Below are positions 347 through 57,783 of a DNA stretch of 58,481 nt, piece after piece. Every line of letters begins with the position of its first letter. The stretch's first letter is position 1. Below the pieces are notes generated by a model. That model was not told the DNA's origin. It did no database searches and was given only the letters and a program-made list of their open reading frames with translations. Both the position numbers and the translations under genes were made by a program. Source of the DNA: a virus; the IMG/VR virus record IMGVR_UViG_3300034004_000010, positions 1-58,481 of that record; one strand, written 5' to 3'.

Positions 347-526
347 ATGCCGAGCAAGGGCACCACGCGGCGCAGCGTCCGCATTCCCGACGAGGAGTGG
401 GTAGCCGCTCAGAACGCCGCCGCAGTCCTCAAGACGGACCTCTCCACCGAGGTCCGTGCCGCCCTGCGCGCTCTCGTGAAGCGCGCCGCCCGCCAGCCCA
501 AGCCCGACACCGAGGAGACCCCGTGA
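347..526 (+). CDS. Ribbon-helix-helix-like DNA-binding protein (59 aa)
   Basis: The segment RRSVRIPDEEWVAAQNAAA looks like the beta strand and first helix of a ribbon-helix-helix repressor, followed by a second helix (LSTEVRAALRALVKRA). Such proteins dimerise and bind operators through the strand. The start at 347 is the first ATG after the upstream stop at 345 and removes a low-complexity Ala/Ser extension. The stop overlaps the next gene's GTG by 4 bp. An antitoxin role is conceivable, but the partner downstream does not look like a known toxin. It is a candidate to act on the palindromes at 97-126. Confidence 0.6.
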   Translation: MPSKGTTRRSVRIPDEEWVAAQNAAAVLKTDLSTEVRAALRALVKRAARQPKPDTEETP

Positions 527-9264: not shown

Positions 9265-10245
9265 ATGGCCCGCATGCGCTACCTCAAACCCGAGTTCTGG
9301 ACCGACAGTGCGGTCGTTGGGATGAGCCCTTGGGGTCGGCTGCTGTTCATCGGATCCTGGAACTTCGCGATCTGCGAGGCCGGCCACCTCGACGACGACG
9401 CCCTAGCCCTCAAGCTCAAGGTGCTCCCTGCTGACCCGATCAACGCCATTGAGGTGCTCGAAGAGGTCATCGCCAGCGGGCGGATCGTCCGCGAGCAGAC
9501 GCCCGATGGCCGCTCCTACCTGCGCATTCGCAACCTGGGCAAGCACCAGAAGGTCGACGCCAGGTGGGCAACCCGTTGCCCCTACTGTGCCACCTCAACC
9601 CTCGCCAACCCTCAGGAGAGTTTCGGTGAGGGTGGACGTGGCTCTACTACTCACGCCAACTCTCACCTTGACTCTGCCCAGGAGGGGATAGGAGGGGAGA
9701 GGAGAGAGAAGAACCCTTCCCCACCTGACGGCGGGGATGAGGTCGGCCAGGAGGGACTCCTCCTCGTCGCCAGCGAAGGCCGCCCCACCCGCAAGCCCGG
9801 GTTCGATGACTTCTGGGCCATCTACCCCCGCCGCGTCGGGAAGATCGCAGCCAAGGCCGCCTGGGACAAGGCCACCAAGACCCGCAAGGTTGACTCCGCA
9901 GTCATCCTCGCCGCCGCCCAGCGCTACCGCGACGACCCCAACCTCCCCGAGGAGACCCTGCGGCCCTACCCGCAGAAGTGGCTCAATGAGGGCCGCTGGG
10001 AAGACGACCCCCTCGCCGCCCCTCTGGACCTCGGTCGCCGCACAGAGCCGTCCGCGGTCCGACCCGACGGCTCCATCGATGCGGATGCCGTACTCGGCGC
10101 CGAGAAGTGGTCCCTGCCCTCACCCCCGCCCGGGATCGAGCCCGGCACCAGCGGCTACTCCGCATGGGCTCGACAGGCATGGAACGAACACCGAGCCGAA
10201 CGCGAGGCCAAGGCCCGCGAAGTCCTCGCAAGGAGGTCCGCATGA
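9265..10245 (+). CDS. Phage replication initiator/helicase-loader-like protein
   Basis: A 326-aa protein with an N-terminal winged-helix-like region of the phage replisome-organiser type (MRYLKPEFWTDS, then SWNFAICEAGHLDDD and a GRIVREQ segment), a charged low-complexity linker (about 115-170), and a C-terminal helical DnaD/DnaT-like segment (FDDFWAIYPRRVGKIAAKAAW, short of 20 conserved in this class as 'FW..YP.+.gK..A...W'). It directly precedes the DnaB-like helicase with an ATGA overlap, as helicase loaders do. ATG at 9265 was preferred to 9223, which would overlap the previous gene by 41 bp. Confidence 0.72.
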   Translation: MARMRYLKPEFWTDSAVVGMSPWGRLLFIGSWNFAICEAGHLDDDALALKLKVLPADPINAIEVLEEVIASGRIVREQTPDGRSYLRIRNLGKHQKVDARWATRCPYCATSTLANPQESFGEGGRGSTTHANSHLDSAQEGIGGERREKNPSPPDGGDEVGQEGLLLVASEGRPTRKPGFDDFWAIYPRRVGKIAAKAAWDKATKTRKVDSAVILAAAQRYRDDPNLPEETLRPYPQKWLNEGRWEDDPLAAPLDLGRRTEPSAVRPDGSIDADAVLGAEKWSLPSPPPGIEPGTSGYSAWARQAWNEHRAEREAKAREVLARRSA

Positions 10246-11540
10246 TCGAGCTTCGTCACGACATCGACACCGAGCGGTACGTCCTCGGCGCAGTCCTGTT
10301 GTCCGCCGGCCGCGCGTTCGACCTGCTGGGCGACATCACCGGGACGGACTTCCACCGCCCCCAGCACGAGGCGCTGTGGGACCTGCTGTCCCGCATGCAC
10401 ACCAAGCGCGAGCCGGTGGAGCTGAAGCCCGTGGCGCAGCGCGCCGAGGACGAGAAGCTGCCGGGGATCGACGCCGGGTTCCTGTTCGACATCCAGTCCG
10501 GGTGCACCACGTGGCGGAACGTCGAGTGGTACGCCCGGAAGTTGCGGGACCTGGCGCGGCTGCGCCGCCTGCAGCAGGCAGGCCTGGAGGCCACACACCT
10601 TGCCTCGGAGGCGCCGCTGGAGTCCGCGGACGACGCGGTAGAGGCGATCCGCGCCAAGGTGGACGCAGCCGCCTCAGCGAGTCCGTTCGGCGCCGCCGAT
10701 GCGGACCCGTCGTTCGGGGACCTGCTGCTCGAGGCGATGGAACGGTGGGAGTCCCCGGCGGAGGCGACGCTGCCCACGGGGCTGTACGACCTGGACCAGA
10801 AGCTGAACGGCGGCCTGCGGGCCGGGCACCTGTTCATCGTCGGGGCTCGGCCTGCGGTCGGGAAATCCGTCGTGGCGTCCGTCATCGCCCACGCCGCCGT
10901 CCGGCACGGTGTCGGCACCCTGTTCGCGTCGCTTGAGATGTCCCGCGACGAGCTCATGGATCGGGTGTGCGCCGACGCCGCCAGCGTCGACCTCACGCGC
11001 CTCACGCAGCGCAGCCTCACTGAGGAGGACTGGCGCAAGGTCCGCAAGCTTCTGGGGGAGGCGTCCGACTGGCCGCTGACCATCGACGACCGGGCGCACC
11101 TGAACGTCACGATGATCCGCGCGAAGGCACGCGACGTGACCCGCAAGCCCACCGGCCTTGGCCTGGTCGTCGTGGACTACCTGCAGCTTGTGAAGCCGAC
11201 CACCGACAAGGTGAGCCGCCAGGAGCAGGTGGCGTCGGTGTCGCGCAACCTCAAGCTCCTGGCCCGCGAGTTGGGCGTGCCCGTGGTGGCGCTGGCGCAG
11301 GTGAACCGCGGCCCCGAGGGGCGCGCTGACCGCCGGCCGAGCATGTCCGACCTCCGTGAGTCGGGCGCCATTGAGGCCGACGCCGACGAGATCATCTTGC
11401 TCCACCGCGACGACAAGGAGTCGCCGGGGGAGATCGAGTTCATCATTGAGAAGAACCGCCACGGTCGCACAGGGACTGTTGCGATGGCGTGGGCGCCGCA
11501 CTACTCGCGGGTGGCGTCGATGGCGAGGGACTTCGCATGA
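10242..11540 (+). CDS. dnaB: DnaB-like replicative helicase
   Basis: A 432-aa hexameric helicase that would unwind the fork. Short N-terminal DnaB domain (RYVLGAVLLS, then DFHRPQHEALW), linker, then the RecA-like C-terminal domain with Walker A GARPAVGKS (201-209), the SLEMSRDEL motif, Walker B-like LVVVDYLQLV and the QV(N)RGPE-type segment with SDLRESGAIE ADAD. Strong AAGGAGG ribosome site before ATG 10242. With the upstream initiator-like protein it forms the phage replication core. Confidence 0.93.
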   Translation: MIELRHDIDTERYVLGAVLLSAGRAFDLLGDITGTDFHRPQHEALWDLLSRMHTKREPVELKPVAQRAEDEKLPGIDAGFLFDIQSGCTTWRNVEWYARKLRDLARLRRLQQAGLEATHLASEAPLESADDAVEAIRAKVDAAASASPFGAADADPSFGDLLLEAMERWESPAEATLPTGLYDLDQKLNGGLRAGHLFIVGARPAVGKSVVASVIAHAAVRHGVGTLFASLEMSRDELMDRVCADAASVDLTRLTQRSLTEEDWRKVRKLLGEASDWPLTIDDRAHLNVTMIRAKARDVTRKPTGLGLVVVDYLQLVKPTTDKVSRQEQVASVSRNLKLLARELGVPVVALAQVNRGPEGRADRRPSMSDLRESGAIEADADEIILLHRDDKESPGEIEFIIEKNRHGRTGTVAMAWAPHYSRVASMARDFA

Positions 11541-47052: not shown

Positions 47053-47090
47053 GATCTCGCGCTGCAAGTGCATAAGATCCGTGCGAGATC
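47053..47090. repeat. Inverted repeat at the 3' end of the tyrosine integrase
   Basis: GATCTCGC (47053-47060) and GCGAGATC (47083-47090) form an 8-bp dyad whose right arm overlaps the integrase stop. It may be a terminator hairpin or an arm/core element of a tyrosine-integrase attP, which often lies beside int. No tRNA-like core is visible. Confidence 0.35.
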
Positions 47091-48171
47091 AGAGGCCGAG
47101 CTTCGTGGCCGCGTTGTGCTTCCACACGCCGGCCTCTTCGCGGTAGCCGCGCATCACGTTCGGCGACTTCCACCCGCCCTGCTGCATGATGTCCATCTCG
47201 GACACCTCCTGCGCGTACGCCTCGGTGGCGAACCCGCGGCGGCCGGAGTGCCCACCCCAGTCCCCGGCGAGGCCAGCGGCAGCGGCGCGGCGCTTCACGA
47301 CCTCCGCGACGTCGCGGCCATCCAGCCTGCGCGGCTGGCCCCCGAGGGCCTTGAGGTTGCCCCACTGGTCCATCGACGGGAACGCGGGCCCCTCCGTGAC
47401 GCCGTAGACCTTGAGCCACGCCAGCCACGACCTCACAGGGCACGTGGCCATGTGTGAGCCGTAGGGGAGACCCTTCGTCTTCCCCTCGCCGGTCTGGTCC
47501 GTTTTCGACCGGCCCAGGACCACCTCGAGCCCGTCCTCGACGACGGTGAAGTCGGTGATGTCGAGGGCGGCGACCTCGGAGCGGCGGAACGCTCCGGAGA
47601 ACAGGACCAGCAGCAGCGCCCGATCCCGAACGTCGAGCGGGTCGCTGGCGAACGTGGCGAGGATGCGGCGAAGGTCCTTGGTCCGCATGGCCTTCTTCTT
47701 GCGCTTGCGCCTACCAGCGTCGGCCTGCGCCTTGCGGATGCCGGTGAGGACGGACACCACCTGCTCGGCCCACACGATCTGCCTGTGGGCGGTGACGCCG
47801 GCGTGGGCGTAGCCGACGCTGATGCTGGACAGCTTCTTCGTCAGCGTGGACGCCGCCAGCCCGGGCCGGTCGCCGTTCGGCTCGGCGAGGGCGGTGAGGT
47901 AGAGGCGGATCGTCTCGGACACGTACTGCGCGGGGGTCGCGCCCTCGCTGGTGGCGTCGTCCGGGCTGGGGAACACGGTTCGGGCGTGCTTGCCGCACCA
48001 CTCGACGTACAGCTTCCAGTCCGTCTCGTACACCCGCCACGTTGACGCCTTGCGCGAGTTGTCGGCGTGCTCGTCGGCCTTCGCCTTGAGCTCGGCGAGG
48101 ATCAGGGCGGCGTCGGGGCGGACGGGGGAGAGGGTGACCGGGGACGCCGTGGCGAGGTCGGTGGAGGTCAT
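47089..48171 (-). CDS. Tyrosine recombinase/integrase
   Basis: 360-aa site-specific recombinase. N-terminal SAM-like core-binding domain (about 35-150), then a basic linker (RRKRKKK) and the catalytic domain with Arg197 (AFRRSEV), Lys223 (GRSKTDQ), His308-x2-Arg311 (GGHSGRRGFATE), Trp334 (GGWKSP) and nucleophile Tyr343 (VMRGY). All catalytic positions are intact. It is the second integrase in this genome and lies within the plasmid-like leftward arm. It could integrate that arm, act as a resolvase for multimers or provide an alternative attachment system. ATG overlaps the upstream stop. Confidence 0.93.
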   Translation of the reverse strand: MTSTDLATASPVTLSPVRPDAALILAELKAKADEHADNSRKASTWRVYETDWKLYVEWCGKHARTVFPSPDDATSEGATPAQYVSETIRLYLTALAEPNGDRPGLAASTLTKKLSSISVGYAHAGVTAHRQIVWAEQVVSVLTGIRKAQADAGRRKRKKKAMRTKDLRRILATFASDPLDVRDRALLLVLFSGAFRRSEVAALDITDFTVVEDGLEVVLGRSKTDQTGEGKTKGLPYGSHMATCPVRSWLAWLKVYGVTEGPAFPSMDQWGNLKALGGQPRRLDGRDVAEVVKRRAAAAGLAGDWGGHSGRRGFATEAYAQEVSEMDIMQQGGWKSPNVMRGYREEAGVWKHNAATKLGL

Positions 48172-48825: not shown

Positions 48826-48879
48826 GGTGTGTCTCCTGTCGGTGGCGTTCAGTGACTGGCGTTCCTGCTGGTCCCCGCT

Positions 48880-48907
48880 ATCTTACCACTGAGAATGGAA
48901 TATTCTC
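48880..48907 (-). promoter_or_regulatory. Extended -10 promoter with 17-bp palindromic operator
   Basis: On the minus strand an extended -10 (TGG-TAAGAT, 48888-48880) is preceded by a perfect-arm palindrome GAGAAT-n5-ATTCTC (48891-48907) over the -35 position. This AT-rich island is unusual for the region. It should drive the integrase operon and be repressible. Confidence 0.5.
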
Positions 48908-48921
48908 GGGGGTTAGCAAGA

Positions 48922-50275: not shown

Positions 50276-50290
50276 GTCTACTCCTCGGGA

Positions 50291-50401
50291 CTAGCGGCGC
50301 GATCGGTGTACGCACCGGTCGACGTGGATGTCGTAGGCCATGCGATTGCGGAACGACGAGGCGCAGTACTCGCAGCGCCACACGTAGATCCGTCGCCTCA
50401 T
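50291..50401 (-). CDS. Mini zinc finger, C-x2-C-x12-H-x3-C (36 aa)
   Basis: Almost the whole protein is one finger: C-E-Y-C, twelve residues, His, three residues, Cys. Spacing is identical to the finger encoded at 56554-56718. AGAGGAGG site before ATG 50401. Such single-finger proteins are commonly DNA- or protein-binding. Confidence 0.6.
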   Translation of the reverse strand: MRRRIYVWRCEYCASSFRNRMAYDIHVDRCVHRSRR

Positions 50402-50412
50402 GCCGTCCTCCT

Positions 50413-51252
50413 CTACTGTCCGCCTGCGACGACGCGCAGGGTCGGGTTCTTGGCGGCACGGATGGCGTCCTTGACGCGGCCGGTGTTGCCGACGGACCAC
50501 CCGGCGTCCTTGATGGCGGTCGTGACGGTGGTGTACCCAGCGTCGGGACTGTCGGCGAGGGCGGCGCGGATGATGCGGTCGAGCTCGGTGTCGGGCACCG
50601 TCACAGGCGGGGGCGGACTCTGCCGGCCCTTGAGTGCAGCGATGGCGTCCGCGACGGCCTTGGCGCGGAGCGCTTCCTGCTCAGCGAGAACAGCCGCGAC
50701 GGCGGCATCGACGGCGCGGTGCGTCTCATCCTCGGCCTGGCGCAGGCGCTCGACGGCTTCGTCGAGCGCCGCCTGCAGTTCCGCAGTCCCATCCGTTGTC
50801 GTCTCTGCCTGGGCCGTGTCTGTGGCACCCTCCCCGGCGAGGTGCCACAGCAGGGACGCCGCGCCGAGAACCAGCACCGGCAGGCAGGACACGGCCACCA
50901 CCACCCACGGCGGAGCGGACGCGATCCCCCCCGCCGCCATCAGGTGGTACGCGGCCTGCCCGAACATGCCAAGGGCCAGAGCCGCCCCGCTCGAGGCCCA
51001 TGCGAACCCACGGGCCCGATCAGTGAGGCGCTCCGAGCTGGTGGCGACATAGAGGGCGTAGATGGCGTACGCCTCCACGCCGATCGGCAGCGTGATCGCT
51101 GTGTTCAGGGCGACGTTGTCGGCGATGCCAGGGAACGGCTTCACGACACCGAACCCCGTGAGGGAGCCGAGGCCCACCCACCCCGACCACGTGGACGCAC
51201 CTGCCGCCGCGCCGATGACGATCAGCGGCCACCTCTTGCGCGCGGGACTCAT
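50413..51252 (-). CDS. DUF2637-like four-helix membrane protein
   Basis: 279 aa. The first 130 residues hold four membrane segments (WPLIVIGAAAGASTWSGWVG; LNTAITLPIGVEAYAIYALY; GFAWASSGAALALGMFG; WVVVAVSCLPVLVLGAASLL). This pattern is typical of the DUF2637 proteins found on Streptomyces plasmids and integrative elements next to tra genes. A cytoplasmic coiled coil (about 155-225) and a basic C-terminal winged-helix-like region (YTTVTTAIKDAGWSVGNTGR) follow. Its ATG overlaps the FtsK/TraB-like stop, so the two are co-translated and probably act together at the membrane. Confidence 0.75.
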   Translation of the reverse strand: MSPARKRWPLIVIGAAAGASTWSGWVGLGSLTGFGVVKPFPGIADNVALNTAITLPIGVEAYAIYALYVATSSERLTDRARGFAWASSGAALALGMFGQAAYHLMAAGGIASAPPWVVVAVSCLPVLVLGAASLLWHLAGEGATDTAQAETTTDGTAELQAALDEAVERLRQAEDETHRAVDAAVAAVLAEQEALRAKAVADAIAALKGRQSPPPPVTVPDTELDRIIRAALADSPDAGYTTVTTAIKDAGWSVGNTGRVKDAIRAAKNPTLRVVAGGQ

Positions 51253-53231
51253 GCCGCCGCCACCGTCCAGCCGGGCTCGCCCTTTGGGGTGGTCGCACGC
51301 TTCACGGCCTTGCCCTCCATCTCCTTGAGCAGCCCACTGACATAGGTGGGGTTCTGTCCGATCCTGTCGGCAATCTCCCCGCGAGTGAGTGCGTGACCCG
51401 CCGTGCGCAGCACATCGGGGATGAGTTCGCGGGCCGTGCGCCCCCCGCTCTGGGGGGGGACGAGGGCGAGGCGGCGGGGCTCCTCGACGTGAACGCCGGC
51501 AGCGACCTCGACGACCTCGCGGATCGGCTCCGCGGCTGGTGCGGCCTCGGGCTCGGCGTCCATGAACTCCGGCAGCCACCGCGCCACGATCGCCTCGTCG
51601 TCCGGGTGCAGCTTCGCCACCCGCGTCTCCGCCAGCCAGTCCTCCACCGTTCCGTGCGGCGCGGCGAAGTCCATGAACTCCAGCTCATCGCGGGTCGGCA
51701 GCATCCTCGCCCGCATCGGCACCAGCGGCACCGCATGCAGGGACGACTTGATGAACCACCAGCCAGCGGCAGCGGGCAGCCTCGTGGGGTCCACGTCGAA
51801 CCCCTGGGTGGCGTCCCTGGCGGCCTGGGCGTCGGCGTACCGGCCGATGTAGACGGTGCCGTTGCCGCGCAGGTCGTTACGGAACGCCGTGGAACCGAGG
51901 GACTCCCCGTCGCCCTTCTGGGTGTTCAGGATGAGGTTGCAGCCGAAGCTGGCGCCCTGGGAGGCGATGTCCTCGAGCTTGCCGATGACGGCCCGCCCCC
52001 AGACCTTGTTCATCTTCCGCATCTCGTCGATCATCGTGGCGAACAGGGGGTCCTGGTAGCCGTCGACCACTGCGTCCGGGTGGTAGAAGTTGCGCCCCGC
52101 CCGCCCGTACCTGCCGGCGCGGGCGGAGAACACCTCGTGGGACATCTCGACCACGCACCGCCACTGGTCGCGGGTCCACCCGTACACGTCAGCGCCGGCG
52201 CGCAGCTCGGGGACGCCGGCGCCGCCCTCGTGCTCGCCCTTGCAGTCAGCGATGGCGAGGAACGCCTGATCCCAGCGGGCCAGGGCCACGCCGAACTGGC
52301 GCATCACGATGCCCTTGCCGTGACGCGACGGCGCCAGGATGACGGCGTGCGCGGCGCCTGAGGGGCCACGGAGCGCGGCGAGAGCAGCACGCCCGTCGGC
52401 GGAGTCGGCGGACTCGAACGCGCCCCGCTCGGACACGTTCCCGTCGGACCAGTACCGCACCACGGACGCGTCGTGCCGGTCGGTGACGGCCACGAGGAAG
52501 TCGTTCGCGTCGCCCTCGGGGTCCGGGGAGATGGACACGGTCCCGCGGGGGCGGCACAGCAGCCGGCACGCCCGTTCCGATGCGCCTTCCACGCCGTCGT
52601 CGCCGTCGATGGGTGCGCGGAGGTGGAACCTGTCGGTGGCGGGGTCGTGGCGGAGCTCGGTGAGGGCGAGGGGCCCGGCCTTGGGGTGCTGGGCGACCTC
52701 CCACTCCCACTGCTCCACCAGCGGGTGGGCCTGGATGGGTTCGGGGCGGTCGTCGCGGAGCATCCACGCGCGGCCCTTCCAGAACGGCCACAGGGCGCCG
52801 ACGGTGACGGCGACCCAGAGGGCGGCCTGGACGCGCCAGTCGATGTCGGGGGTGGCGTCGAGCCACACCTGCCAGGCGGCGGCGGCAGCGCAGGCGCGGC
52901 GCAGGCGGGTCTGCTCGAGCGCGCTGATCCACCGCTTCGGTTCGCGCCACAGGTCGAACGCGAACCCCAGCGCCAGCCACACCCACGGCGTCCACCACGA
53001 CACGTAGCAGGCGGTGGCAGCGAAGTAGACGGGCCGCAGGTGGTAGCGGTAGCGGCCACGGGCGGTCTGGTTGCCCAGCCAGTACAGGGTCATCCCGGTG
53101 AGGGTGACGCCCTGGACGAGGGGCTTGAGGGTGGCGGTCCAGAACAGGAACCGCAGGACGGCGACGCCGGGGGCGCGGCCGGGCGGGGCGGGGGCGGGAG
53201 GCGCCGGGCGGGCGATCGTGACGAGCGGCAT
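51249..53231 (-). CDS. traB: FtsK/TraB-like DNA translocase
   Basis: 660 aa. N-terminal membrane segments (about 24-52, 68-92 and 133-152), then a RecA-like motor with the Walker A region APSRHGKG (300-307), Walker B ATMIDEM (398-404), an NTQKG sensor-like motif (436-440), and a C-terminal winged helix (about 595-660: ELIPDVLRTAGHALTRGEIA). This domain order equals that of actinobacterial conjugative translocases (TraB/TraSA), which move double-stranded DNA between mycelial cells and recognise clt repeats through the winged helix. The last Walker A residue is Gly rather than Ser/Thr. Virion packaging uses a separate terminase, so this is a plasmid-type function. Confidence 0.85.
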   Translation of the reverse strand: MPLVTIARPAPPAPAPPGRAPGVAVLRFLFWTATLKPLVQGVTLTGMTLYWLGNQTARGRYRYHLRPVYFAATACYVSWWTPWVWLALGFAFDLWREPKRWISALEQTRLRRACAAAAAWQVWLDATPDIDWRVQAALWVAVTVGALWPFWKGRAWMLRDDRPEPIQAHPLVEQWEWEVAQHPKAGPLALTELRHDPATDRFHLRAPIDGDDGVEGASERACRLLCRPRGTVSISPDPEGDANDFLVAVTDRHDASVVRYWSDGNVSERGAFESADSADGRAALAALRGPSGAAHAVILAPSRHGKGIVMRQFGVALARWDQAFLAIADCKGEHEGGAGVPELRAGADVYGWTRDQWRCVVEMSHEVFSARAGRYGRAGRNFYHPDAVVDGYQDPLFATMIDEMRKMNKVWGRAVIGKLEDIASQGASFGCNLILNTQKGDGESLGSTAFRNDLRGNGTVYIGRYADAQAARDATQGFDVDPTRLPAAAGWWFIKSSLHAVPLVPMRARMLPTRDELEFMDFAAPHGTVEDWLAETRVAKLHPDDEAIVARWLPEFMDAEPEAAPAAEPIREVVEVAAGVHVEEPRRLALVPPQSGGRTARELIPDVLRTAGHALTRGEIADRIGQNPTYVSGLLKEMEGKAVKRATTPKGEPGWTVAAA

Positions 53232-53241
53232 CGGTGCCTCC

Positions 53242-53276
53242 TTCAGGGGTTAGGTGAGGTTCAGGTGGGGTTCAGG
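53242..53276. repeat. TTCAGG direct repeats before the translocase gene
   Basis: TTCAGG at 53242-53247, 53260-53265 and 53271-53276, plus a degenerate TTAGG at 53250-53254, spaced about 8-11 bp in the same orientation (CCTGAA on the coding strand). The first copy overlaps the ribosome site of the translocase. Candidate operator or clt-type TraB recognition repeats. Confidence 0.45.
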
Positions 53277-53284
53277 GATGGGGT

Positions 53285-53318
53285 GGCCCGCCGAGCCGGG
53301 ACGGCGGCTCGGCGGGCC
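53285..53318 (-). terminator. Terminator upstream of the translocase gene
   Basis: GGCCCGCCGAGCC (53285-53297) and GGCTCGGCGGGCC (53306-53318) form a perfect 13-bp stem with an 8-nt loop, 17 bp after the stop at 53335. It separates the upstream membrane-protein cluster from the translocase. Confidence 0.8.
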
Positions 53319-53334
53319 CGATTGCCCGGCGAGG

Positions 53335-54197: not shown

Positions 54198-55163
54198 CTA
54201 GCTGCCCTGGACGGACATGGACGTCTTCGCCAGCTTGCTCGCCTGCTCCCGCAGTGAGTCCACTGCGGACGCGAACTGGCGGGCGGTCGCCTCGAGCTCG
54301 TCGACCGCCGAGTCCATCTCGGCGCCGAACCCGCCGGCGCGGGACTGCTCGCCGATCACGTGGGCCTTCGCGGCGACGACGATGAAGTCGGACGCGATGG
54401 TCAGGGCGTCGATCTGCTGGGCGAAGTCCTGGACGGCGGTGTGGGTGCGCAGCTCGGTGGGGACAGGCATGGGTGCTCCGTTCGTCGGGGTAGGTGCAGT
54501 GCGGCCTGCCGGGCTGGTTCCGGCTGGCGGGTCCATGGGTGTGGGGAACGGCCAGTCCCCTGCGAAGCGGTTGCCGTCCTGGTCGATGGGGCCGGTGTAC
54601 CCGCCGTGCCGCAGGGTCCAGAAGCGGCGCTCCTTGTCCGTCAGGGGGGCGGGGTGCATGGCGTTCCACTCGGGCGTCCAGCGGTCCCGAATGGACGCCT
54701 CACTGTCGAGCTGCGGACTGTCCTCGACCGCCGGGGACACCTGTCCCGGGGGGGTGTCCTGGCCCTGTGCCTGCGGGGTGTCCTGCCTGTCCTCGCCGGG
54801 TGTCCCAGCGGCTGTCCTGGCCTTGTAGGCCTCCTTGGCCTGGCGCCACGCGGAGGCTGTCCCGGCGGCACCCACTGCACCTGCCAGGCCCACCGCCTTC
54901 GCGGTCTTCCCCGCAGCGAGGACAGCTCGCCCCGCCTTGCGCTGGGACAGCTTCTTGCTCACGGCGCCGGGCTGTACCGATCTGGCCCACCGCTGGCTGG
55001 CCCCAGCCTTGAACCCGCCCGGGACAGCCTTCGCGCCCGCACCGAGGCCACCCGCGACCCGGCCTGTCCTGGCCTTCGCGGGACCATCCGGGACAAGCTT
55101 CCAGGCGTACCGCCCAGCGACGATCAGGCAGAACAGGACCACGCAGGCCCGGACCAGTCCCAT
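54198..55163 (-). CDS. Membrane-anchored protein with shared C-terminal domain (321 aa)
   Basis: N-terminal membrane helix (VRACVVLFCLIVAGRYAW), a basic Ala/Gly-rich region, a Gln/Pro/Asp-rich disordered stretch, and a C-terminal helical domain (VQDFAQQIDALTIASDF) paralogous to that of the next gene. A WTLRHGGYTGPIDQDGNRFA segment sits between. Start ATG 55163 overlaps the upstream stop (TGATG). Resembles plasmid spread or conjugation accessory proteins in organisation, not by a recognised family. Confidence 0.6.
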   Translation of the reverse strand: MGLVRACVVLFCLIVAGRYAWKLVPDGPAKARTGRVAGGLGAGAKAVPGGFKAGASQRWARSVQPGAVSKKLSQRKAGRAVLAAGKTAKAVGLAGAVGAAGTASAWRQAKEAYKARTAAGTPGEDRQDTPQAQGQDTPPGQVSPAVEDSPQLDSEASIRDRWTPEWNAMHPAPLTDKERRFWTLRHGGYTGPIDQDGNRFAGDWPFPTPMDPPAGTSPAGRTAPTPTNGAPMPVPTELRTHTAVQDFAQQIDALTIASDFIVVAAKAHVIGEQSRAGGFGAEMDSAVDELEATARQFASAVDSLREQASKLAKTSMSVQGS

Positions 55164-55612
55164 CACCCGAACCACCCGCTCGTCTGCTGCCGGGCCGGCT
55201 CACTGATCTGGTTCACGACGTGGCTGACGTTGCGGCCGAACTTCCCCGGGATCGCGCCCTGGGCCAACGCCGAGGGCAGGACCAGCAGGACAAGGACCAC
55301 CGGGACCGCGACCGACGACCCAGGGGCCAGGTTCTGCGGCAGGACAGCCTCGACCGCGAGGAACAGTCCCACGACCAGTCCCACGGCGATCGCCAGCCGC
55401 AGCCATGGGTTCAACCCGATGACGTACCCGATGAACCGGTACAGCGCCGTGGCGGTCGCCCAGTATCCGGCGACCAACGCCAGGACAGCCGCGACCAGCC
55501 CGACGATCGACATGATGACGCCCTGCCTGTTGCCGAAGTTCAGCCGCCCCGCGAGGGTCAGCAGCCCGACGGCGACAGCGGTCAGGAGCGCCGCGTACGT
55601 GTATGCCCTCAC
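55163..55612 (-). CDS. Polytopic membrane protein (149 aa)
   Basis: Four predicted membrane segments (AALLTAVAVGLLTLAG; MSIVGLVAAVLALVAGYW; WLRLAIAVGLVVGLFLAVEA; SSVAVPVVLVLLVLPSALA), with a hydrophilic C-terminus. GTG 55612 with GGAAGG site. Similar multi-span small proteins (Spd-type) accompany tra genes on actinobacterial plasmids, but sequence identity was not recognised. Confidence 0.6.
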   Translation of the reverse strand: MRAYTYAALLTAVAVGLLTLAGRLNFGNRQGVIMSIVGLVAAVLALVAGYWATATALYRFIGYVIGLNPWLRLAIAVGLVVGLFLAVEAVLPQNLAPGSSVAVPVVLVLLVLPSALAQGAIPGKFGRNVSHVVNQISEPARQQTSGWFG

Positions 55613-55655
55613 GGGCTCGCCTTCCTTTCTGTGGTGGGTGCAGTGGGTCGGGATG

Positions 55656-55757
55656 GGTGTCAGGGGGGGGGTGTCAGGTCCTGACGGTGTTCGTGCTCCG
55701 CCTCGCGCGCCCACGCACGTAGGGAGCCACCCCCTGACACCTGACGGACCCCCTGAC
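55656..55757. repeat. Cluster of six CCTGAC repeats (origin/operator candidate)
   Basis: In the 152-bp non-coding gap, CCTGAC occurs at 55680-55685, 55733-55738, 55740-55745 and 55752-55757 on the plus strand and as its complement GTCAGG within 55656-55664 and 55670-55678. Three copies extend to CCTGACACC, producing a large inverted repeat GGTGTCAGGGGG/CCCCCTGACACC. No other gap in the window is so repetitive. Likely a protein-binding control, origin or clt-like site. Confidence 0.55.
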
Positions 55758-55764
55758 TGTGCGG

Positions 55765-55968
55765 CTACTGGGGGCGGTGCTCGATCCAGCCGGCGTAGGC
55801 GTCCCACGCGTCGATCCGGTACCGCGTCCAATCCCCCAGACCGCGTGCCTTCACCTCGTTGCGCAGGACCAGCAGGCAGGCGAGTCGGTCGCGGGGCTTC
55901 ACGTCGCGGCTGACCTCGCCGCGGACGAGTCCCATCGCGTCTTCCTCTACGAGCCGCAGCCTGGTCAT
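55765..55968 (-). CDS. Small basic protein (67 aa)
   Basis: ATG overlaps the preceding stop (ATGA). Two helices and a C-terminal YRIDAWDAYAGWIEHRP segment. Last gene before the CCTGAC repeat cluster. Function unknown. Confidence 0.5.
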   Translation of the reverse strand: MTRLRLVEEDAMGLVRGEVSRDVKPRDRLACLLVLRNEVKARGLGDWTRYRIDAWDAYAGWIEHRPQ

Positions 55969-56279
55969 GCAGCCTTCCGCTCCCCCGCCTCAATGGCGGC
56001 GACCTCGGCGCGGTCCCGCTCCCTGGCGACCCGGACTCGCTCGGGAGAGAACACGTCCACGTTCGGCGGGAGGTCGTACCGGTAGCTGCGCCGGATCGCG
56101 GGACCTACGGCGACGACGAGGATGAGCGCGAGGGCGACGGCCCCGCCGTAGACGGCACCGATGAACCCCCATGAGACGCCACCGAATCGGGCGACCGCGA
56201 AGGGGCCGAGGACGACAGGCGCGGCGAGGACGAGGTTCCAGCGGGTGGCCCAGGACAGGCTCGCCAGGTGCGCGATCAC
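55965..56279 (-). CDS. Two-span membrane protein (104 aa)
   Basis: Hydrophobic segments WNLVLAAPVVLGPFAVARFG and GFIGAVYGGAVALALILVVA, then a charged cytoplasmic helix (SPERVRVARERDRAEVAAIE). Fits a small membrane component of a transfer or surface apparatus. GTGA overlap with the WhiB gene upstream. Confidence 0.55.
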   Translation of the reverse strand: MIAHLASLSWATRWNLVLAAPVVLGPFAVARFGGVSWGFIGAVYGGAVALALILVVAVGPAIRRSYRYDLPPNVDVFSPERVRVARERDRAEVAAIEAGERKAA

Positions 56280-56557
56280 GCCGCCACCTGGCCTCGGTCG
56301 GCCCGGCGCCGCTGTCGGCGGATGGCCTGCCGCTCCTCATCGGAGGTCGCCCCCCAGATACCCCACTCGAACCGCTCGACGGCGTACTGCAGGCACTGCT
56401 CCATGACGGGGCAGCGACGGCAGACGGCCTTGGCGGCGAGGGTGTTGCCGCCCTTGTCGGGGAACCACTCGTCTCCGCCGACCTGCGCGCAGAGCCCGCG
56501 GGTCATCCACTCGGCGCCGTCGAGGTCGAGGTCGGCGAGGGAGTCGAGGCCGATCAC
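56276..56557 (-). CDS. WhiB-family transcription factor (93 aa)
   Basis: Full canonical Wbl protein: Cys23, Cys46, Cys49 and Cys55 ligand an iron-sulfur cluster, the GIWG turn is at 66-69 and a basic C-terminal tail (RRQRRR) binds DNA. It is the second WhiB in this genome and differs strongly from the longer early-operon one. Located in the plasmid-like operon; probably regulates that arm or host development genes. Confidence 0.9.
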   Translation of the reverse strand: MIGLDSLADLDLDGAEWMTRGLCAQVGGDEWFPDKGGNTLAAKAVCRRCPVMEQCLQYAVERFEWGIWGATSDEERQAIRRQRRRADRGQVAA

Positions 56558-56718
56558 GACGCTCTCCGCATGCAGGAGGAGCGGTGGCTACGGAGCTGGA
56601 AGTGTGACGGGAAGACTTGCGGGCAGAAGCCGCAGGGCCAGCCTGCCGAACCGCCACGCGGAGTGGGCTTGGCGGGCTTGGGAAGCTTGCTGCGACCCGG
56701 AACGCGACGGTCGATCAC
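56554..56718 (-). CDS. Mini zinc finger, C-x2-C-x12-H-x3-C (54 aa)
   Basis: Basic Pro/Lys-rich N-terminus (VPGRSKLPKPAKPTPRGG) followed by C-G-F-C, twelve residues, His, three residues, Cys. Spacing equals that of the 50291-50401 product. GTG start overlaps the upstream stop. Likely nucleic-acid binding. Confidence 0.6.
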   Translation of the reverse strand: MIDRRVPGRSKLPKPAKPTPRGGSAGWPCGFCPQVFPSHFQLRSHRSSCMRRAS

Positions 56719-56978: not shown

Positions 56979-57142
56979 GAGGTGCCTCCCCGGGTGATGA
57001 CGAGTGCGGTGACGCCGACCCCGGCCAGGACCATCACGACCACGGCGGGGACGTACAGGACGCCCTTGCTGCTAGCGGTGGTGACGGCGATGAGCAGGGA
57101 CGCGGCGAACAGGACGCCGAGCTGGGCACGCAGGTGCTTCAT
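56975..57142 (-). CDS. Two-span membrane microprotein (55 aa)
   Basis: Short basic start (MKHLRAQLG) then two hydrophobic helices (VLFAASLLIAVTTAS and YVPAVVVMVLAGVGVTALVI). ATG overlaps the HTH gene's stop (TGATG). Probably co-inserted with the neighbouring membrane proteins. Confidence 0.55.
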   Translation of the reverse strand: MKHLRAQLGVLFAASLLIAVTTASSKGVLYVPAVVVMVLAGVGVTALVITRGGTS

Positions 57143-57348
57143 CACGCCACCTGCTCCTTCTGCTCGCCCTGGCGGACGTAGGCGTCGATGGCGGCCCAGC
57201 TGGTGCGGACGCCGGACTTGCCGAGGGGGATCCGCGGCAGGGTGCCGTCGGTCATGAACTTGCGGATCTGGTCTTCGCTGCAGGCGAGGGCGACGGCCGC
57301 CTCGCTGACGCGGGCCAGGCGTGGCGCCTGGATAACTGCCTCGGTCAC
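57142..57348 (-). CDS. Excisionase/MerR-like helix-turn-helix protein (68 aa)
   Basis: Winged-helix fold of the excisionase/AlpA type: RVSEAAVALACSEDQIRKFM recognition region followed by DGTLPRIPLGKSGVRTSWAA (the wing) and a terminal DAYVRQGEQ helix. GTG 57348 was chosen for its AGGAGG site; the frame remains open upstream into the operator. First gene of the leftward plasmid-like operon, divergent from the GntR-type gene. Candidate directionality factor or operon regulator. Confidence 0.7.
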   Translation of the reverse strand: MTEAVIQAPRLARVSEAAVALACSEDQIRKFMTDGTLPRIPLGKSGVRTSWAAIDAYVRQGEQKEQVA

Positions 57349-57367
57349 ATCGCCTCCTGTCATACGC

Positions 57368-57403
57368 TGTCGTGTGGTGCCGTATGCGTACGGTAGCACG
57401 ACA
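57368..57403. promoter_or_regulatory. 36-bp dyad operator between divergent regulators
   Basis: TGTCGTG (57368-57374) and CCGTA (57380-57384) are mirrored by TACGG (57389-57393) and CACGACA (57397-57403). Overlapping -10-like hexamers in both directions (TACGGT at 57389-57394 rightwards, TACCGT leftwards) sit at the centre, so one bound dimer would block both divergent promoters. Confidence 0.55.
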
Positions 57404-57477
57404 CGTTGGGCGGTGCGCAAGTCCTATCGCTGGCGGGTCGGGCACACTGAGCGCATGCGCACGAACGGTCACGCCGG

Positions 57478-57783
57478 GTGAGCCCGCCGGAGAAGTGGCG
57501 ACAGGTCTACGAAGACCTCGCCGCCGGGATCCGCAGCGGCCAGTACGCGCCCGGCGAGGCACTGCCCGGGGTCATCCGCATCCAGGCGCAGTGGACCGTG
57601 TCCAACTCCACTGCCGTCCGGGCGTTGCGTGAGCTGGTTGCGTCAGGGTTGGCCGTCTCGGTCGCCGGCCGCGGGACCTACGCGGCGCAGGACTTGCCGG
57701 GTGAGGACGCAGCGCCCTCCCTTGCTGACCGCGTGGCCGAGCTCGAGCGGCGCATGGACGCCCATGAGCAGGGGCACGCCTAG
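57478..57783 (+). CDS. GntR-family transcriptional regulator (short, 101 aa)
   Basis: N-terminal GntR winged helix: VYEDLAAGIRSGQYAPGEAL, then STAVRALRELVASGLAVSVA and GRGTY, followed by a short coiled coil (DRVAELERRMDAHEQ) instead of an effector domain. GntR regulators such as KorSA control transfer genes on actinobacterial elements. Divergent from the leftward operon across the 36-bp dyad, its likely binding site. The GTG overlaps the stop of an 8-codon frame starting at ATG 57455, so coupling is possible. Confidence 0.8.
   Translation: MSPPEKWRQVYEDLAAGIRSGQYAPGEALPGVIRIQAQWTVSNSTAVRALRELVASGLAVSVAGRGTYAAQDLPGEDAAPSLADRVAELERRMDAHEQGHA

Follow-up and report, generated by a model that had tools for sequence, protein, structure and literature searches.

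The window analysed here, that is the whole 58,481 bases of IMG/VR virus record IMGVR_UViG_3300034004_000010, is the record of a temperate actinophage. Its final 102 bases are a copy of bases 19-120, and the genome therefore closes as a circle of ~58.4 kb. The window contains a siphophage head module (TerL, portal, protease and major head protein), replication genes at 9265-11540 (initiator 9265-10245, DnaB helicase 10242-11540) and a serine-recombinase-like integrase at 782-2170, which was named from its own sequence rather than from a profile search. A second recombinase type, a tyrosine recombinase (47089-48171, Pfam Phage_integrase), is also encoded. The nearest terminases by sequence are those of metagenomic phages (up to 72%) and Streptomyces prophages (61-64%). 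A long leftward gene array extends from 57348 to 44275 and includes two genes, 55765-55968 and 55163-55612, separated by the non-coding gap that is the subject of this report (Table 1). The leftward-arm proteins near the gap were orphans in every collection searched: no relatives of the TraB-like and gap-adjacent proteins were found in peptide-pattern scans of IMG/VR and GTDB genomes, in tblastn searches of phages and plasmids or in 396 actinobacterial genomes. Two weak matches to leftward-arm proteins were attributed to chance.

Several other features of the record were observed. A run of 19 G at 3-21, where the overlapping far end of the record reads GGGCGCGGGCGGGTGGGAC, is likely a sequencing or assembly artefact of the contig end. 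Two small minus-strand frames, at 56554-56718 and about 50290-50395, encode C2H2-like zinc-finger sequences (CGFCPQVFPSHFQLRSHRSSC; CEYCASSFRNRMAYDIHVDRC) and fall in gaps of the gene calls. On the minus strand, a promoter-like stretch at 48826-48921 holds the palindrome GAGAATATTCCATTCTC, a possible operator, flanked by TTGCTA and TAAGAT. Finally, the divergent region between the 101-aa GntR-like and excisionase-like genes (57349-57477) contains nested inverted repeats (CCGTACGCATACGG; GTGTCGTG / CACACGACA).

Table 1. Positions of the gap, its repeat units and the genes discussed, in window coordinates.
Feature	Position	Strand	Details
RHH-like protein	347-526		
Putative DUF2637-like membrane protein	50413-51252	-	Best window match to DUF2637 profile, weak (prob 35.7%, E 3.8e-4)
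Predicted divergent TraB/FtsK-type translocase	51249-53231	-	660 aa; hydrophobic N-terminal segments, Walker A region APSRHGKG, C-terminal winged helix
Predicted C-terminal winged-helix domain of the TraB-like protein	51252-51434	-	Last 60 residues; AF2 block means about 66-92
First gene downstream of gap	55163-55612	-	149-aa hydrophobic orphan; GTG start, SD AGAAAGGAAGG
Non-coding gap with clt-like cluster	55613-55764	.	152 bp; from ORF map
CCTGACACC unit, inverted copy 1	55656-55664	-	CCTGAC part 55659-55664
CCTGACACC unit, inverted copy 2	55670-55678	-	CCTGAC part 55673-55678
CCTGAC unit, direct copy 1	55680-55685	+	
Spacer GCGTGGGCGCGCGAG	55702-55716	-	14/15 identical to spacer of clt-like region of phage L023
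CCTGACACC unit, direct copy 2	55733-55741	+	CCTGAC part 55733-55738
CCTGAC unit, direct copy 3	55740-55745	+	7 bp past copy 2
CCTGAC unit, direct copy 4	55752-55757	+	
WhiB	56276-56557		
Excisionase-like HTH	57142-57348		
GntR	57478-57783		101-aa GntR-like protein

The original prediction, made from the sequence alone, had placed six copies of CCTGAC, two inverted and four direct, within 102 bp of this gap. We confirmed their positions at 55659-55757. As it had also described, three of the copies are extended to CCTGACACC within an interrupted palindrome, the inverted arms of which (55656-55670 and 55727-55741) are 15 nt long, 93% complementary and separated by 56 nt. The core of CCTGACACC is TGACACC, and the 102 bp thus hold three TGACACC plus three further CCTGAC; the second inverted and first direct units (55673-55678 on the minus and 55680-55685 on the plus strand) together form the odd palindrome GTCAGGTCCTGAC. 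CCTGAC by itself is common (65 in the record vs 49 expected), so that only its clustering and the 9-mer are unusual. A motif scan of the whole record with a background model found exactly three CCTGACACC, all inside the gap, to which GGTGTCAGG is confined as well. The cluster is the densest in the window among all non-repetitive hexamers: six copies in 102 bp were reached by 1 of 300 Markov genomes, and six copies by none of 5000 dinucleotide shuffles of the gap. Among the 31 called gaps of at least 60 bp, this is the only one with a 6-mer far above its null. The claim that it is the only repetitive gap of the leftward arm stands in that sense, but not literally, since the gap before the TraB-like gene (53232-53334) also has repeats, its C-rich leader containing CCTGAA three times and CCTAAC once. 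A long GC hairpin (GGCCCGCCGAGCC..GGCTCGGCGGGCC) was observed ahead of these units. One G-quadruplex motif, at 55636-55671, was dismissed as not distinctive, the window having 25 such canonical motifs (about 7 expected under a second-order Markov model).

Within the same array, 51249-53231 encodes what is, by profile comparison, a divergent TraB homologue. The protein had no Pfam or PHROG hit and no blast relative in the searched collections, and was missed by a 9-row TraB profile scan, the negatives of which are consequently weak for other records too. Against a 38-sequence TraB profile it was the sole match in the window proteome (hhalign 94.9%, E 4.8e-8), while the next protein reached 7.1% at most and the reversed sequence 0.1%. 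The Walker A region, a DPK-like strand and a LIVSLQR motif are in register with TraB, and the frame is intact at 660 aa. AF2 was usable for the C-terminal domain only (mean pLDDT of the whole motor without alignment, 37.7); the last 60 residues were modelled with good confidence as helix-helix-helix-strand-strand, resembling MarR/ArsR/Zalpha winged helices (best E 8.4e-3). The presumed recognition helix reads NPTYVSGLLKE, unlike the SRPWVSARLK-type helix (SR.WVS..L) of TGACACC-type TraB; WVS is found too in CGCACA-class proteins. The match of the neighboring frame 50413-51252 to DUF2637, the usual partner of traB in Streptomyces elements, is suggestive only.

We then compared the repeat with those of characterized transfer systems. 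The clt of the Streptomyces plasmid pWTY27 has four direct TGACACC repeats, all four are footprinted by its FtsK-like Tra protein, and the clt region is required in cis for transfer (PMC3583192). Because several systems had been looked up, a match with pWTY27 alone could be coincidence, and further tests were therefore carried out. We scanned 393 Streptomyces genomes with the pattern TGACACCN(0-30)TGACACCN(0-30)TGACACC and used the reversed pattern as control. The triple pattern was present in 161 genomes and the control in a small minority, many of the TGACACC matches being coding repeats. Twelve loci, mostly of the recurrent form TGACACCTGACACC..GTCACG, were chosen by repeat sequence alone. 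In 11 of the 12, an FtsK/TraB gene has its 3' end where the cluster starts or a few bases away, and the twelfth has none. These 11 clusters sit in integrative elements (DUF2637, spd-like genes, ftsK, cluster, prim-pol, xis, int), in which Pfam support was weak for FtsK (E 4e-5 to 4e-3) and strong for prim-pol, and one FtsK of which is 70.5% identical to the pWTY27 protein (NC_013667.2). On the basis of this identity and of the position at the FtsK 3' end, we assign the clusters by homology as clt-type sites. Their repeats and those of pWTY27 share both the unit and the 7-bp step with the gap. The word alone proves little, since unrelated viral contigs of lower GC that lack TraB have TGACACC/CCTGACACC arrays too: a clt-like pattern scan of viral contigs returned two of these, and a DNA-pattern scan of IMG/VR returned 14 stretches, many of them heptad-like arrays of the CCTGACACCTAACA type and none tied to the window phage. 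The argument is accordingly one of word, translocase and relatives combined.

A clt-unit matrix was built from 113 units of pWTY27-type sites, the window not being used in its construction. With this matrix the gap ranked first in the window at 50.2, ahead of a runner-up at 21.5, and none of 120 Markov genomes scored as high (best 45.7). True clt sites score 86-141 with the same matrix, which makes the gap a weak or diverged member. When 25 window gaps were aligned locally with four clt regions, this gap was the best match to three of them. Shuffles of it did as well in 0, 0, 4 and 34 of 1000 cases for the four regions; the pWTY27 alignment is the one barely above shuffles (34/1000). Sites of the pWTY27/TraB clt type are characterized by multiple TGACACC copies in a short non-coding region, inverted among direct repeats and a location directly at the 3' end of the gene for a TraB/FtsK translocase with a C-terminal winged helix. 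The gap has the TGACACC copies and the inverted repeats (the 15-nt arms), and the window encodes a homologue of such a translocase, but the cluster lies 2.4 kb upstream of the TraB-like gene. The clt of pIJ101 is located near korB, so the 3'-end position is no absolute rule. A further suggestion, that one protein binds both the gap and the promoter at 97-116, was not borne out: the promoter scored 21.5, less than the median best of shuffled genomes (25.3), and TGACACC is not enriched (11 copies in the record vs 9.95 expected), one promoter copy overlapping the -35 TTGACA.

Phages related to the window provide a parallel. The TerL of phage L023/L216 (IMGVR_UViG_3300049170_000045) is 63% identical to that of the window, and its traB gene is likewise paired with TGACACC units. 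The order of the cluster is the same in both (two inverted, one direct, a GC-rich spacer and three direct units; CTGAC/GTCAG units ordered - - + then + + +), and the spacer GCGTGsGCGCGCGAG is common to them. In L023, however, the units come immediately after traB, and the encoded TraB stands far closer to the plasmid family (E 3.2e-231 against a profile of which L023 TraB is itself a member). We examined 400 bp around the gene end in six distinct TerL-related records with a TraB-like frame. At least six copies of one hexamer were found at the traB 3' end in four of the six relatives vs 3 of 455 random 400-bp stretches, the hexamers being TGACAC, TTGTCC, CCGTCC and TAGCAG. A private repeat cluster beside the TraB-like gene is thus a habit of this phage group. 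The last three hexamers form the private clusters at the TraB-like 3' ends of L213, L215 and L019. Dense palindromic repeats were also seen inside coding sequence, at L023:2265-2354 (GGAACC), within a DUF2637-like gene, and at L063:1337-1437 (GGTACC); these are possible further binding arrays.

The main rival to a transfer site is an operator, on which a phage or host regulator (GntR, WhiB, excisionase-like HTH or RHH-like) would bind the inverted and direct units and control the operon from 55612. The gap does immediately precede a gene whose ribosome site is good, includes inverted units and the palindrome GTCAGGTCCTGAC, and belongs to a phage encoding several small DNA-binding proteins; moreover, GntR regulators often stand beside tra genes in Streptomyces plasmids. 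We nevertheless consider an operator unlikely, as the gap has no sigma-70-like promoter, its six irregularly spaced units exceed the usual operator, the divergent promoter region of GntR itself (57349-57477) lacks CCTGAC and known clt sites have this same motif. A replication or partition site, with an initiator or RHH ParB bound to iterons or to a parS-like array, is very improbable in our view. Short direct and inverted repeats with 7- and 14-bp steps do resemble heptad arrays such as pSM19035 parS, and an RHH-like protein is encoded at 347-526. But pSM19035 parS requires at least four contiguous heptads and the gap has at most two (55733-55745), while iteron origins adjoin the initiator gene and here about 12 kb of the circle separates initiator and DnaB from the gap. 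A GC-skew plot, which had been proposed as a route to an origin, has no switch at the gap.

The signal could also act at the RNA level, as a long stem or a C-rich, G-poor leader of the leftward transcript with a role in termination, processing or translation. The 15-bp arms would suit such an element, few 60-mers of the window have as strong an excess of C over G as the minus-strand leader 55631-55690, and a similar C-rich leader precedes the TraB-like gene. Folding energy of the gap was nonetheless unremarkable relative to shuffles (z -1.23 on the minus strand and -0.61 on the plus strand); RNA structure, with z above -2, was rejected. As the gap folds no better than shuffles and has no match to a sigma-70-like promoter, a terminator or Rfam, the signal more likely resides in double-stranded DNA, and we attach little probability to the RNA reading. 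The least credible alternative is that the cluster arose by chance from composition, or is the remnant of a clt that came in with a transfer module and has since decayed out of use. The unit score is about half that of true clt sites, the translocase helix differs and the location differs from that in relatives, all of which would fit a remnant; the shuffle and genome controls (0/5000 for six copies, 0/120 for the clt score) and the intact TraB-like frame oppose it. Of the functions offered by the original prediction (iterons, partition sites, operators or clt, with the translocase winged helix among the possible binders), clt is thus the one favored, given the repeat identity with pWTY27, the clusters found where traB genes end in Streptomyces elements and in the related phage, and the TraB homologue of the window; iterons became less likely with the replication genes located elsewhere.

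We therefore regard the gap as probably a clt-like TraB loading site, with appreciable room for doubt. In Streptomyces, conjugation relies on a single FtsK-like pump together with a short site at which it is loaded. By analogy, the C-terminal winged helix of the phage TraB/FtsK-type translocase would bind the CCTGACACC/CCTGAC units, and the motor would assemble at the gap on circular phage DNA, as a ring at a membrane. It would then pump double-stranded DNA through the septum or into a neighboring cell or compartment, as in Streptomyces plasmid conjugation. The benefit to the phage, at a guess, would be that an episomal or excised prophage could, without lysis, spread across the mycelium or into a mating partner. 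This interpretation is weakened by the distance of the cluster from the TraB-like 3' end, by a recognition helix different from the SRPWVSARLK type, by the low clt score, by the remoteness of the TraB homology and by the fact that no close relative of the gap was found.

On a broader scale, we tentatively envisage a lineage of temperate actinophages with working conjugation modules, TraB plus clt, the repeat being private to each phage; we hold this possible rather than probable. No more firmly, we suggest that such genomes move from cell to cell as naked double-stranded DNA besides particles, the window phage doing so with a diverged translocase and a displaced clt. The phage may then have a plasmid-like mode of spread besides infection. 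If pump and site do occur together in a phage that has its own capsid, terminase and integrase, as well as in several TerL relatives whose repeats are individual to each, conjugation-like spread may be recurrent in actinophage life, beyond rare plasmid-phages. The translocase and site pairs would also be a natural series for learning how the winged helix reads its repeat.

Among known systems, the stoperators of the cluster A mycobacteriophage L5, asymmetric 13-mers that are scattered genome-wide and point the same way with respect to transcription, are likewise short repeated sites in intergenic actinophage gaps. The window, in contrast, has a single cluster in both orientations with no genome-wide excess, and a stoperator reading was rejected, the units not being dispersed (GGTGTCA 11 vs 9.95 expected). 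The pWTY27 clt (NC_013667.2; PMC3583192) resembles the gap in having TGACACC repeats within about 150 bp of non-coding DNA, inverted units, a TraB/FtsK translocase in the element and the strings CCCCCTGAC and CTGACGGAC. It differs in that it starts inside the tra-gene 3' end, whereas the window gap has two inverted units first, no CCCTAGG core and a phage as its element. AICE-type Streptomyces elements have in common with the window the CCTGACACC unit, the 7-bp direct step, mixed orientation and GC-rich spacers, and differ in gene order, replication module and cluster location. Genomes combining phage or phage-like character with plasmid properties, as proposed for the window, also have precedents. 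The Streptomyces plasmid-phage pZL12 is reported to have both transfer and a lytic cycle, and PhiNon1 of Nonomuraea is described as a phage genome with plasmid properties. pCQ4 carries traA/traB, with CTGACA repeats at traB. This Streptomyces element, too, is a plasmid-phage. No sequence relation of pZL12, pCQ4 or PhiNon1 to the leftward arm of the window was found. Plasmid-phages as such are already known; what the window would add is a version that is diverged and displaced.
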